Shown here piece after piece: positions 7,813-12,907 of a stretch of DNA of 34,107 nt. The stretch is from Petrotoga sp. 9PW.55.5.1. Lineage in GTDB: Bacteria > Thermotogota > Thermotogae > Petrotogales > Petrotogaceae. Location: NCBI RefSeq assembly GCF_003265365.1, contig NZ_AUPM01000001.1, forward strand, positions 1 through 34,107. Direction: 5' to 3'. The notes below the pieces were generated by a model that saw only the letters and a list, made by a program, of their open reading frames with translations, searched no databases and was not told where the DNA came from. A program made the translations under genes and the position numbers. Numbering within the stretch: position 1 is the stretch's first letter; each line of letters starts with the position of its first letter.

Positions 7813-8610
7813 ATGAAATACGGTGTAGCTTTAGGCAGCGGTGGGGCAAGAGGTGCAGCACACATTGCCTTGTTAGAACAGCTAAAAGAACGTGAAATAG
7901 AAGTTTCTATTGTTACTGGTTCTAGTGCGGGAGCTATAATTGGTGCATTTTATGCTCTATACCCTGAAGTGGATCTATTAAAAGTTTTCAAAGAAATTAT
8001 TGTTGATGAAAAAAGAACAATCGAATCGCATTTCAAAACATTAAACAATAAGATAACTAACTTCCCTAAGATGATTGCTGGAAAGAGTTTTTTAAAGAAC
8101 GAATTCGTATATCGTTTGTATAAAAACCTTTATGGAAATAAAAAATTCTCTGATTGTGAAATAAAACTTGGTATTGTTTCTTATGATTTGGAAAGTGGTA
8201 AGGAAGTTGAAATAACCGAAGGTTATATAATAGATGCGGTTATGGCCTCCACTAGCGTTCCTGGAGTTTTTCCTCCCCTCAGACTTGGAGGTATGCAACT
8301 TCTGGATGGGGGAGTATTAGAACCAGTCCCTGCACAATTAGCAAAAAAATTAGGAGCTGAATATGTTATTTTTAGTGATTTAAATAGTGAAACTATTGAA
8401 AACTTTCAAATCAACGATGGTTTAGAATATTTAATATATATTGATGACTATAAAAATAAAATAATGGTAGATCATGAAGCCCAATTCGCAGAAGAGATTT
8501 ATTCATTCCCAATAAAATACTCGTGGGAAGATTTTTCTCACTTTCTTGCCATTTATGAAGACGCCAAAATTTATTTAGAAAATAACTTTAAAGAAGGTAA
8601 AAAACATTGA
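7813..8610 (+). CDS. Patatin-like phospholipase (RssA/NTE family)
   Basis: Serine acyl hydrolase of 265 aa. All patatin marks are present: the oxyanion-hole glycine loop GSGGARGAAH (about 8-17), the nucleophile elbow TGSSAGA with Ser38, and the dyad aspartate in LLDGGVLEPVP (Asp165). The family cleaves acyl chains from phospholipids or other lipids using a Ser-Asp dyad. There is no signal peptide, so it is probably cytoplasmic or at the inner face of the membrane. The ATG has GGAGG upstream. It overlaps the next gene, a degenerate paralogue, by four bases. With envelope genes on both sides, a role in lipid turnover of the envelope is a reasonable inference. Confidence 0.9.
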   Translation: MKYGVALGSGGARGAAHIALLEQLKEREIEVSIVTGSSAGAIIGAFYALYPEVDLLKVFKEIIVDEKRTIESHFKTLNNKITNFPKMIAGKSFLKNEFVYRLYKNLYGNKKFSDCEIKLGIVSYDLESGKEVEITEGYIIDAVMASTSVPGVFPPLRLGGMQLLDGGVLEPVPAQLAKKLGAEYVIFSDLNSETIENFQINDGLEYLIYIDDYKNKIMVDHEAQFAEEIYSFPIKYSWEDFSHFLAIYEDAKIYLENNFKEGKKH

Positions 8611-9380
8611 CAATAGTTATGGGTGGATTTTTTGAAGGATTATACTGGGAATCAGGTGTGTTAGATTTTTTTTCAAAAAAAGAGAATGATATAAATTTAT
8701 ACACTTCAAGTATAGGTAGTTTAAGAGGTTTATTTTATTCTAAGTATGGTTCGAATTTTTTCCTCCGTCTCAAAAGTTTTCTCGCTGAGAAGGATAATCC
8801 TCTAAATGAAATAATTAAATCGTCGGAATTATATCACAGTAGATATGCTCAAACCACTGCTTTGATAAGACTGGGAAGAGGGAAATTGTCTCTTTACGAT
8901 TCCAATACTTTAAAAAAGTTTCTAATGGATTATTTCGAAGATGAAACTATCGGATCGCTGGGGGATAATATTCACTTTGAAGTTTTAGAATTAAAAAGTA
9001 GAGAAATTATTACCTTAAACAAAAATATTAAAATTGTGGATATGTTAATGATGGAGTTAGCATTTCCTCCTTACTATGGTTATTATGAGTTTGAAGGAGG
9101 ATATTTTATACCTAGTTCATTTTTATCGTTTATTCCACAAAAATTTCCAAAGGATTCTATGGTGATCGCTTTTGATTCTTCCTTGAGATATCCTTACCCC
9201 AAAAATACTGTAGAAATATTACTAAAAACTTCTTATTCAAGGACTTTAAAAAATTATCGTATTATAACTGAAAATATAAGAACTATAGAGCCAAAAAAAA
9301 CACCTAACAGCTATTTTAATATGTCTGCCTTTTTTGATGGACAAAATGATGCCAAAGAATTTATGGAGGTTGAATTATGA
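8607..9380 (+). CDS. Degenerate patatin-like paralogue
   Basis: Protein of 257 aa that I could align by eye to the patatin just upstream: GGFFEGLYWESGVLD matches the glycine loop, TSSIGSLRGLFY matches the nucleophile elbow (Ser35 in the serine position, but Thr instead of the first Gly), and FEGGYFIPS matches the DGG dyad with Glu163 in place of Asp. Patatins use Ser-Asp, so the Asp-to-Glu change suggests reduced, altered or lost activity. The start is TTG at 8607, overlapping the TGA of the first patatin, with GAAGG upstream; an ATG at 8619 is possible. It overlaps the following OstA-like gene by ATGA. A regulatory or heterodimer partner role is a guess. Confidence 0.7.
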   Translation: MTIVMGGFFEGLYWESGVLDFFSKKENDINLYTSSIGSLRGLFYSKYGSNFFLRLKSFLAEKDNPLNEIIKSSELYHSRYAQTTALIRLGRGKLSLYDSNTLKKFLMDYFEDETIGSLGDNIHFEVLELKSREIITLNKNIKIVDMLMMELAFPPYYGYYEFEGGYFIPSSFLSFIPQKFPKDSMVIAFDSSLRYPYPKNTVEILLKTSYSRTLKNYRIITENIRTIEPKKTPNSYFNMSAFFDGQNDAKEFMEVEL

Positions 9381-10000
9381 AGAGAAATTTTCTTTTAATT
9401 GTTTTTTTACTTTTTTTGAGTCTGTTTACATTCTCCGCAAAAATAAATGTAAGGGCTCAAGAAGTTAAAGGAGAAGAAAGTCGCTATATTTTAAAAAGCG
9501 ACGTTTTAATTCAAAAGGGAACCCTTTCTATCACTACAGAAATGGCTACTATAACTTTGGTGAACGATGACTGGAGAAATGTTGATACTACCAGTGCATA
9601 TATCATGGATGAAACTTTTCAGGCTACTTCTTTGATTCTTCAATTTGACCTTCAAACTGAAAAAGGAACATTAAAAGGCGATGTTGTTGCAAGTATTTTA
9701 CTAGAAGATTCAATTATTGATATAATATGTGATGAGCTCTTAATAGACAATAATAAAAAGATGTACGAAGGAAAATCAGAAGATTTGGTATTCATTAAAA
9801 AAGATGACTATGTAATACATTCTAAATCTTTTGTGTATCTGGAAGAGGAAAACTTACTGACTCTGTCGCAAGAAGTACATATCGTTAATAACGTGAAAAA
9901 AATTGATATGAATTCTACAAAGGCTCTTTTTAACACTAAAACCAATGATATTGAAGCTCAAAATGTAAATCTCATTTTGGAAGTATCAGAAGAGGAATAA
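9377..10000 (+). CDS. Secreted OstA/LptA-like protein
   Basis: Exported protein of 207 aa with a signal peptide (hydrophobic residues 4-20, FSAKI junction). The body is almost entirely alternating beta strand, with layered repeats resembling an OstA/LptA/LptC jelly roll: RYILKSDVLIQKGTLSITTE, then a segment around GTLKGDVVASI, then CDELLIDNNKKMYEGKSED and KSFVYLEEENLLTLSQEV. In didermic bacteria such proteins bridge lipopolysaccharide across the periplasm. Thermotogota are not known for typical LPS, so the cargo here is unknown. ATGA overlap with the upstream pseudo-patatin points to coordinated expression. The family assignment is by pattern and moderately sure; LptD or LptB partners are not in the window. 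Confidence 0.6.
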   Translation: MKRNFLLIVFLLFLSLFTFSAKINVRAQEVKGEESRYILKSDVLIQKGTLSITTEMATITLVNDDWRNVDTTSAYIMDETFQATSLILQFDLQTEKGTLKGDVVASILLEDSIIDIICDELLIDNNKKMYEGKSEDLVFIKKDDYVIHSKSFVYLEEENLLTLSQEVHIVNNVKKIDMNSTKALFNTKTNDIEAQNVNLILEVSEEE

Positions 10001-10558: not shown

Positions 10559-11002
10559 ATGAAAACAAATAACGGTTTCTTATTAGTAGAGATAGTCTTT
10601 GAAATTTTTATTTTATCATTAACAATATTAATTGTTTTAGGTACCTTCGCAGGGACTTTTCACGTTGTTAAGAGTTCTCTTATAGACATGGTTGAGTTAA
10701 ATATAGTATCTAATTCATTGATGGCGGTAATATACACTGCAAAAAACGAAATGAAAAATGTAACCTCTTTCGATTCTTCTTCTGTTCTTGGAGATTTAAA
10801 AGATGGAAGCTCTACCAGCATCGTTGGATTTTCTTATAATCCATTTACTAAAAGGTTAAATCGATATAGGAAAAGCATATCGGAATCAGGAAGTACCCTC
10901 ATCGGAGAAAATGTAACAGAATTCTCTTATGATGGAGAATTCTTAAATTTAACAATTTTGGATAAATACACTTTGAAATTATATATCAAATCTCAATTTT
11001 AA
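10559..11002 (+). CDS. Type IV pilin-like protein (pseudopilin)
   Basis: Protein of 147 aa with a type IV prepilin N-terminus: short leader MKTNNG, cleavage site G|FLLVE with Phe at +1 and the essential Glu at +5, then about 20 hydrophobic residues (IFILSLTILIVLGTFAG). The remainder is a short soluble domain rich in beta strand, like minor pseudopilins of type II secretion or competence (ComG-type) systems. It would be processed by a prepilin peptidase and sit in the inner membrane. No ATPase, peptidase or secretin is nearby, so the main assembly genes must be elsewhere. The ATG follows the previous stop by one base and has no evident Shine-Dalgarno, so translation is probably coupled. Confidence 0.75.
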   Translation: MKTNNGFLLVEIVFEIFILSLTILIVLGTFAGTFHVVKSSLIDMVELNIVSNSLMAVIYTAKNEMKNVTSFDSSSVLGDLKDGSSTSIVGFSYNPFTKRLNRYRKSISESGSTLIGENVTEFSYDGEFLNLTILDKYTLKLYIKSQF

Positions 11003-11034: not shown

Positions 11035-12303
11035 ATGGCTAATGAAATAATAGAGACCTACAAACTTTTGGAAGAAAGAATTAAATCTGAAAATATTCGA
11101 ATATATTTTGAAATGCTTGATTCACCTTATCCAACATTTAAATCAAAGGCGATTCAAGAGTTAACAAAGCAAAAGATAGATACTCCTATAATAAAAGAAC
11201 ATTTGAAAGACCCTGATAAGAATGTACGATTTTCTGCCTTTAGATATTTAGACAAAATGGGGATTTTAGATGAAGAAACAACAAAAGAAGCACTAAAAGA
11301 TCTATCTTCTGCTATTAGGAAAGAAGCGGTTATAAGTTATATTCAAGCTGGAATACAACCAATAGAATATATTTTAGACCATGCTAAAGACCCTGATCCC
11401 ATAGTTAGATATACTCTTCTTTCAACGTTTCTGGAGTTTTATCCTGAGGATTCTCAAAAGTTGATCGACTTATTAAAGAATGATCCCTACATAAAGATTA
11501 AACAATTGATAGCCGCTCTAGAAGACATTTCTCAAACTCTGATTTCCGACGAAATAGAAAAAAGTGTTAAATTGATATCCTTGAAAAGATTTTATGAGAG
11601 AGAAGATTCCATAACTTTTTTCAATACCCTTAAAGCAATATATTTTGAGTGCAATAACGAAACCAAAGGTTTGATTATTAAGTTTTTTAGTGGGCTACCA
11701 TGTGAAATCATTAAGACATTCATGGATAAAATTATTCAAGAAGAAAAAGATTTAAACATACTCCAACTTGCAGCAAATACCTTAAAAAAAGTGTGTAGTA
11801 TAGATTCGATACCTTCTTGGCTGATAGAAGATTTGATAAAAAGCGAAGATGCAAAAACTATAAAATTCGGTTTAAAGTTAGCTGCTGAAAAAGACGACAT
11901 GAGTTATGTGGATTTTTGTAGAGAATTGCTTTCTGAAGTTGATGATGACCTAGTTATAGGAGCAAGTGAATATCTTTTATATTTTCAAGACTATAAACTT
12001 AAAGATTATGTTCCTGAATTTCTAAACTCCTTATCATCCAAAAGAATTAGAGAAGGATTAAAAATTATTAGAAAATTAAAATTAGAAAATTTTATTGAAG
12101 AAAGTTCCGATATTGCTTCAAATAAAATATATCCAACTTCTGTTAGAAAAGCAGCGGTTAATTTATTAAAATTCTTCAAGGCTAAAGATTATTGGGAAAT
12201 TCCTCAAATGATTTTAAAAGACCCCAATGAAAATGGAAATTTAAAATTAGCTGCTTTAAATGCTCTATTGCGACTAAATGCGGAGATGGTGGTAAATCTT
12301 TAG
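11035..12303 (+). CDS. HEAT-repeat protein
   Basis: Alpha-helical repeat protein of 422 aa without signal peptide or membrane segments. Short paired helices recur with the HEAT/PBS-lyase-type spacing, for example LKDPDKNVRFSAFRYLDKMG, LKDLSSAIRKEAVISYIQAG, AKDPDPIVRYTLLSTFLEF and, near the end, LKDPNENGNLKLAALNALL. The repeated DPxxxVR element is the turn between helices. Such proteins are scaffolds; no catalytic function is expected. A good GGAGG precedes the ATG. The reading frame ends in CTT TAG C, and the comFC frame opens in +1 right across this stop (see the comFC entry), so a HEAT-ComFC fusion by frameshifting is possible. Confidence 0.78.
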   Translation: MANEIIETYKLLEERIKSENIRIYFEMLDSPYPTFKSKAIQELTKQKIDTPIIKEHLKDPDKNVRFSAFRYLDKMGILDEETTKEALKDLSSAIRKEAVISYIQAGIQPIEYILDHAKDPDPIVRYTLLSTFLEFYPEDSQKLIDLLKNDPYIKIKQLIAALEDISQTLISDEIEKSVKLISLKRFYEREDSITFFNTLKAIYFECNNETKGLIIKFFSGLPCEIIKTFMDKIIQEEKDLNILQLAANTLKKVCSIDSIPSWLIEDLIKSEDAKTIKFGLKLAAEKDDMSYVDFCRELLSEVDDDLVIGASEYLLYFQDYKLKDYVPEFLNSLSSKRIREGLKIIRKLKLENFIEESSDIASNKIYPTSVRKAAVNLLKFFKAKDYWEIPQMILKDPNENGNLKLAALNALLRLNAEMVVNL

Positions 12304-12304
12304 C
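12288..12304 (+). promoter_or_regulatory. Candidate +1 frameshift site at the HEAT/comFC junction
   Basis: The HEAT gene ends GTG GTA AAT CTT TAG C. The core CTT-TAG-C has the same logic as the prfB programmed +1 site (CTT-TGA-C): a CTT codon before a stop, with the peptidyl-tRNA able to slip to TTT. An SD-like GGTGG (12288-12292) lies five bases before CTT; in prfB the spacing is about three. After a +1 slip, AGC AAA ATT opens exactly the comFC frame. Similarity is seen; use as a frameshift site is inference. An alternative is an ATC start at 12296. Confidence 0.4.
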
Positions 12305-12907
12305 AAAATTATTAATACTCTTTTTGAATCTCACTGTATCGTATGTAAAAAAACAATAAATATTGGAGAAATTATATGCAATGATTGCATTGAAAATATT
12401 TATTCCCCTTCTTCATCTGAAGGGGTTTTTAAGGTTTATCATTATGGAAAATACCAATACCCACTATCTAATATTATAATAAATTTTAAATACAATTCTC
12501 ATCCACAAATTGCAAGAATATTCGGTAAACAGCTTGCTTCTTTATTCATTAAATTAAAATTCCCAGAAATCGAATACGCTGTTTCATATGTACCTTCAAA
12601 TTATATAAGTAGATATCAAAAAGGGTTTGTTCCTGCAGAGTTGATAGCTTCTCACTTCAGTAAACTTTTAGGATTTCAACTAGTGAATATTTTTTCTTCA
12701 AAAACTATAAAAAGGCAATCTCAATTAAATGGTAGAAGAAGAAGTGAAAACGTAAAAAACAAAATAAAATTACTTAAAAAACCACCAAGAAATCTTATAA
12801 TAATAGATGATGTATACACCACAGGTTCTACAATGAATGAAATTGGAAACTTAATATTCGACCATTGTGATATTATTGTTGGATTAACCGTGGCAAAAAC
12901 TTTTTAA
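12296..12907 (+). CDS. comFC: ComFC-type phosphoribosyltransferase with zinc ribbon (no canonical start)
   Basis: The open frame from 12296 gives about 203 aa with full ComFC architecture: an N-terminal C4 zinc ribbon (CIVC, then ICNDC), a middle segment FKVYHYGKYQYPLSNIIINF, and a C-terminal PRTase fold with the PRPP loop LIIIDDVYTTGSTMN. ComFC acts in natural DNA uptake or processing in competent bacteria. No ATG, GTG or TTG lies between the in-frame stop at 12293-12295 and the first zinc Cys; the first usable TTG (12641) would remove half the protein. Family length requires a start near 12296-12311. Expression therefore needs an ATC/ATT start (GGAG at 12282-12285) or +1 frameshifting from the HEAT gene. 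The frame is otherwise intact, so it is not obviously a pseudogene. Confidence 0.8.
   Translation: MFSKIINTLFESHCIVCKKTINIGEIICNDCIENIYSPSSSEGVFKVYHYGKYQYPLSNIIINFKYNSHPQIARIFGKQLASLFIKLKFPEIEYAVSYVPSNYISRYQKGFVPAELIASHFSKLLGFQLVNIFSSKTIKRQSQLNGRRRSENVKNKIKLLKKPPRNLIIIDDVYTTGSTMNEIGNLIFDHCDIIVGLTVAKTF
12405..12430 (+). terminator. Terminator-like hairpin inside comFC
   Basis: CCCCTTC (12405-12411), loop TTCATCT, GAAGGGG (12419-12425), then TTTTT (12426-12430). It has all the features of an intrinsic terminator but lies in the comFC frame, encoding a serine-rich linker after the zinc ribbon. It resembles the outer hairpin of the dispersed palindromic repeat. It might work as an attenuator that is only overridden when ribosomes enter comFC; this is inference. 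Confidence 0.45.

Follow-up and report, generated by a model that had tools for sequence, protein, structure and literature searches.

Few conserved AUH starts (AUA, AUC or AUU) are found in the literature compared here, namely those of infC, pcnB, ccpN and cvfC1, and comFC of a Thermotogota lineage likely adds one. infC and pcnB start at AUU in Escherichia coli (PMC4245954). In Staphylococcus aureus, ribosome profiling places the infC start at AUA and, together with reporters, demonstrates conserved AUU/AUA starts behind strong Shine-Dalgarno elements (SDs) for cvfC1 and ccpN; the AUU/AUA starts tested there reach about 10% of AUG, with ccpN attaining as much as 30% in rich medium (PMC13009471). 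A site of another kind is that of prfB, where +1 frameshifting uses AGGGGG, three nt, CTT, TGA and C; a survey of >12,000 genomes reported this motif as absent in Thermotogota and TAG as never used in 8,164 cases (PMC12421855). An overlap of 8 nt (-8 nt) is among the commoner geometries of translationally coupled gene pairs (PMC10666635), and in Helicobacter pylori both domains of ComFC are required for its activity in natural transformation (PMC9005727).

The comFC locus studied here resembles several of these systems and departs from each. It shares with infC (AUU in E. coli, AUA in S. aureus and in the genome studied here) a near-cognate AUH codon behind a good SD that is conserved in its lineage, but infC encodes a codon-sensing factor and is autoregulated, whereas comFC has no link to initiation and belongs to a pair of overlapping genes. 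As in cvfC1 and ccpN, an AUH start behind an SD is conserved across species, although those cases were established by profiling and reporters (PMC13009471) while comFC is known by comparison, and its start overlaps an upstream stop. The likeness to E. coli pcnB is that of a chromosomal gene with an unusual start, AUU in pcnB, the genes being otherwise unrelated (PMC4245954). Coupled -8 nt pairs show the same start-stop overlap, in the same direction and with the SD in the upstream gene (PMC10666635), but at this locus ATHTTTAR replaces the canonical NTG start.

The HEAT/comFC junction and the comFC product

The window is the whole stretch of DNA that was analysed, 34,107 nucleotides from Petrotoga sp. 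9PW.55.5.1 (NCBI RefSeq assembly GCF_003265365.1, contig NZ_AUPM01000001.1, positions 1 to 34,107 of the forward strand). The HEAT-repeat gene in it (Table 1) ends in GCG GAG ATG GTG GTA AAT CTT TAG, then C, with CTT at 12298-12300 and the stop at 12301-12303. The comFC frame is +1 relative to the HEAT gene; it is closed upstream by an in-frame TAA (12293-12295) and opens at ATC 12296. The observations from which the initial annotation set out hold on the window sequence: skipping one base at AAT CTT TAG C opens comFC, a GGTGG (12288-12292) lies five bases ahead of CTT, and no ATG, GTG or TTG precedes the zinc ribbon, the first such codon in the frame being TTG 12641 at codon 116, far past the cysteines. 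That annotation mentioned neither the GGAG core at 12282-12285 nor the conservation of the ATH codon.

Table 1 Features of the HEAT/comFC locus in the window
Feature	Position	Strand	Remarks
HEAT-repeat protein gene	11035..12303	+	ATG start, 422 aa; PF13646, E=7e-14
Predicted Shine-Dalgarno element GGAGATGGT inside the HEAT gene	12282..12290	+	Bipartite GGAG + GGT against 16S tail CACCTCC; GAG in 20/20; duplex -10.3 kcal/mol
Putative comFC start codon AUC	12296..12298	+	ATH at unchanged frame and spacing in 12/12 genomes (six genera); ATG/GTG homologue in g6
8-nt overlap of putative comFC start and HEAT stop (ATCTTTAG)	12296..12303	+	Kept as ATHTWTAR
CTT TAG C, proposed frameshift site	12298..12304	+	Not conserved: CTT/TTT/ATT/TTA then TAG/TAA in 12 relatives
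comFC, ComF-family, 4-Cys zinc ribbon and phosphoribosyltransferase domain	12296..12907	+	Cysteines, DDVYTTG, TIGR00201, dN/dS

The comFC frame comprises 203 codons, begins IFSKIINTLFESHCIVCKK and ends at TAA 12905-12907. The zinc-ribbon cysteines C14, C17, C28 and C31 are invariant, as are D171 and D172 of the PRPP loop (residues 171-177). The product thus resembles described ComFC/ComF competence proteins in its N-terminal 4-Cys zinc finger, PRT domain and DDxxTTG PRPP loop (PMC9005727); what sets it apart is its unusual start codon and context and a TIGR00201 score (E=5e-28, 98.2 bits, model positions 1-176 of 190) that lies below the curated cut-off of 233.55 bits. The PF00156 match is sub-threshold, and the C-terminus is 8 residues shorter than in congeners. 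By homology and domain features, as predicted from sequence, the protein is a divergent ComF-like member, not an above-cut-off member of TIGR00201. Codons 2-115, all of which lie ahead of any canonical start, are under purifying selection when compared with congeners (dN/dS ~0.1-0.2), so this part of the gene is very probably translated. Gene callers restricted to ATG/GTG/TTG are predicted to cut comFC here to 88 aa, with loss of the zinc finger, or to miss the gene. Among about 30 genes in the window, no other start-less gene with a conserved N-terminus was convincing.

Upstream of the HEAT gene, the ORF at 10559-11002 has a type IV prepilin-like start (MKTNNGFLLVEIVFEIFILSLTILIVLGTF) and no Pfam match, and an LptA/LptC-like gene (9377-10000) and a patatin-like gene (8607-9380) adjoin. 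The occurrence of the prepilin-like ORF with comFC hints at a pilus/DNA-uptake gene cluster.

Start position and Shine-Dalgarno element across relatives

comFC was sought by six-frame search, in 61 genomes first and then in 21 family members, 20 of which carry it. In 12 genomes from g1, g2, g3, g4, g5 and g7 (g1-g8 are working labels for genera, not formal names), including the window genome G000, the counterpart of ATC 12296 is ATH (8 ATT, 3 ATA, 1 ATC); AUC, AUU and AUA thus interchange at the comFC start in this clade, and AUG never occurs there. The HEAT gene has 422 codons in all 12, and in each there is a same-strand overlap of 8 nt between the ATH codon and the HEAT stop, a geometry of coupled pairs, in which start and stop overlap or lie within a few nt of each other. 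At this position of the HEAT alignment, which is gap-free there, the seven g6 genomes have ATG (2) or GTG (5), and this identifies the comFC start site; in g8, comFC has a separate ATG that overlaps the HEAT stop (TAATG). The ATH genomes group together in a midpoint-rooted FastTree of the prfB and HEAT proteins (in which the root is an assumption and support is weak at some nodes), a grouping that would fit a single start-codon change.

The 12 genomes differ in how strongly they call for an AUH start. G000, G013, G011 and G008, one each in four genera, lack any canonical start ahead of the first zinc cysteine and have none open upstream, so across species an AUH codon stands at the homologous position with no usable canonical start. 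The necessity of a non-canonical event rests on these four because the others offer canonical alternatives: an in-frame ATG 18 nt upstream of ATT is open in G006 and G009, and an ATG at codon 6 or 8 (G001-G005 and G009) or a TTG at codon 6 (G007) lies within about codons 6-9, so that G001-G007 and G009 on their own do not demand an AUH start. In the window, a comFC-frame ATG inside the HEAT gene (12278-12280) reads ATG CGG AGA TGG TGG TAA ATC, with the stop just ahead of the AUH codon; its counterpart is closed in most ATH genomes and, where open, in G006 and G009, lacks a clear SD. The overlapping HEAT Asn codon AAT may account in part for the conserved AT of the ATH codon, but in g5, where the HEAT codon is GAT, ATT is nonetheless kept.

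A synonymous-site signature in the HEAT gene points to an SD at a fixed distance from the start codon, canonical or AUH. The Glu codon at 12283-12285 is GAG in 20/20 genomes, against 16% GAG among Glu codons in these genes and 6/20 in the next most GAG-rich invariant HEAT Glu column, and wherever ATH, GTG or ATG occupies the start position (19 genomes) it ends exactly 10 nt ahead of that start codon; of the 12 ATH genomes, 10 have GCG as the Ala codon just before this GAG, against 11% usage. Pairing with the 16S tail of the genome itself, GGATCACCTCCTTTC, agrees with this position at initiation spacing: GGAGAUGGU pairs as GGAG + GGU around a bulge, an imperfect bipartite SD whose best duplex in the window species has -10.3 kcal/mol and which is weaker in G006 (-5.3 kcal/mol). 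The conserved GAG is thus predicted to be part of an in-gene SD for comFC.

We consider it likely, with a probability of roughly 0.87, that comFC is an ordinary ComF-family gene starting at AUC 12296-12298, where the ribosome would be placed by the SD within the terminal part of the HEAT gene. The initial annotation had offered an ATC/ATT start as its second reading, and the conserved start site and SD favour that reading and narrow it to ATC 12296. Such a start would have a precedent in the same cell, because infC of the window genome (L042, G000:C18:2990-6484, minus strand) has no ATG/GTG/TTG at a usable place; its context is AAAGGAAGGTGATTTTAT-ATA-AGC-GAT, and its apparent start is AUA, preceded by AAGGAAGGTGA. 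Seven of the eight family genera keep AUA at the infC start position, and g6 has ATT.

Alternative readings of the junction

The first reading of the initial annotation, that CTT-TAG-C is a programmed +1 frameshifting site at which GGTGG serves as internal SD and a HEAT-ComFC fusion results, draws on a real resemblance, since AAT CTT TAG C looks like a prfB site with a purine-rich element upstream, a one-base slip opens comFC, and the P-site codon is CTT or TTT in 7/12 relatives, with re-pairing possible on TTT. The likeness to prfB is superficial, however, and we regard this reading as very improbable because the elements it needs vary. The P-site codon is CTT only in the window species and TTT, ATT or TTA elsewhere, where prfB-type sites keep CTT followed by TGA C; the stop is TAG in the window species alone, the rest of the ATH clade having TAA; and the following base is also variable. 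In place of AGGGGG three nt before CTT the junction has GGTGG at 5 nt, and this in 2/12 genomes only. Moreover, prfB itself is a single open frame in each of the 20 family genomes whose match exceeds the cut-off, the window genome's copy included, which agrees with the reported absence of the motif from Thermotogota and of TAG from all 8,164 cases (PMC12421855). Ordinary separate comFC starts in g6 and g8 also argue against a fusion, and frameshifting leaves the conservation of GAG and the SD at a fixed distance from the start unexplained. The frameshift was rejected on motif conservation across 20 genomes and on prfB itself; what is conserved is the start site, and a ribosomal frameshift is most likely unnecessary for comFC translation. 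Within the window, the CTTTAGC motif is not rare (two copies per strand), and folding around the junction gave no consistent excess structure. A second, below-cut-off match to the prfB model (G020:C7:420642-421648, probably prfA, RF1) lies in two overlapping pieces in G020 only, possibly through a frameshift or an assembly error.

The remaining alternatives keep separate translation but move or remove the start. A start at AUU codon 5 or 6 (12308 or 12311) is suggested by the ATG that five congeners have at codon 6, where the window species has ATT; we consider it highly unlikely because neither codon has a usably spaced SD, codon 6 reads TTG, TTA or TTT in g3, g7 and g4, codon 5 is TTA in G013, and the N-terminus would be left with 8 residues before the first Cys. 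Likewise, the internal ATG at codon 6 was rejected as the true start, being neither shared nor preceded by an SD at normal spacing. That comFC is decaying after the loss of its start, or is made only as an internal fragment from TTG 12641, would agree with the lack of a canonical start before codon 116 and with the shortened C-terminus, but it is scarcely credible given that all zinc and PRPP-loop residues are intact, that there are no internal stops, that selection acts ahead of codon 116 and that the ATH state is common to six genera; a pseudogene was rejected by dN/dS. The initial annotation would have read an ATG at the comFC start of relatives as a sign of sequence error in the window. 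ATG does occur, but only in g6, where with GTG it marks the start site, and the six other genera carry ATH; the error was rejected, as ATH replaces the canonical start in the same frame relation in five congeners and in six genomes that represent five further genera, which with the window genome make 12. Comparison of relatives thus separates a look-alike of the prfB frameshift from a hidden start codon.

Coupling to the HEAT gene and control of ComFC supply

With AUC 12296 as the start of comFC, GGAGAUGGU (12282-12290), which lies within the final codons of HEAT, would position the ribosome on AUC, and fMet-tRNA would initiate on this near-cognate codon through a third-position mismatch. Ribosomes ending HEAT synthesis would halt at 12301-12303, a stop that AUC overlaps and that the comFC SD precedes by 11-19 nt. 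Given this 8-nt overlap between comFC start and HEAT stop, initiation would probably be mostly termination-reinitiation by ribosomes that have just translated HEAT and are held by the SD. IF3 discriminates against near-cognate start codons, and the AUH codon would keep ComFC low relative to HEAT and sensitive to IF3. In E. coli, IF3 overexpression reduces re-initiation (PMC2268962). IF3-sensitive, low-level expression of ComFC is plausible; initiation at AUC, coupling to HEAT, low yield and IF3 sensitivity are what we infer from the arrangement of the genes.

comFC is most likely a new, evolutionarily conserved case of an unusual start codon, as judged from sequence comparison, and its novelty lies in a DNA-uptake gene, in an overlapping gene pair and in three interchangeable AUH codons over six genera. 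A more doubtful extension is that in most of the family ComFC is under IF3-responsive start-codon control, with selection excluding AUG; because infC and comFC both use AUH starts, the level of IF3 or the translational state of the cell would then set ComFC supply.
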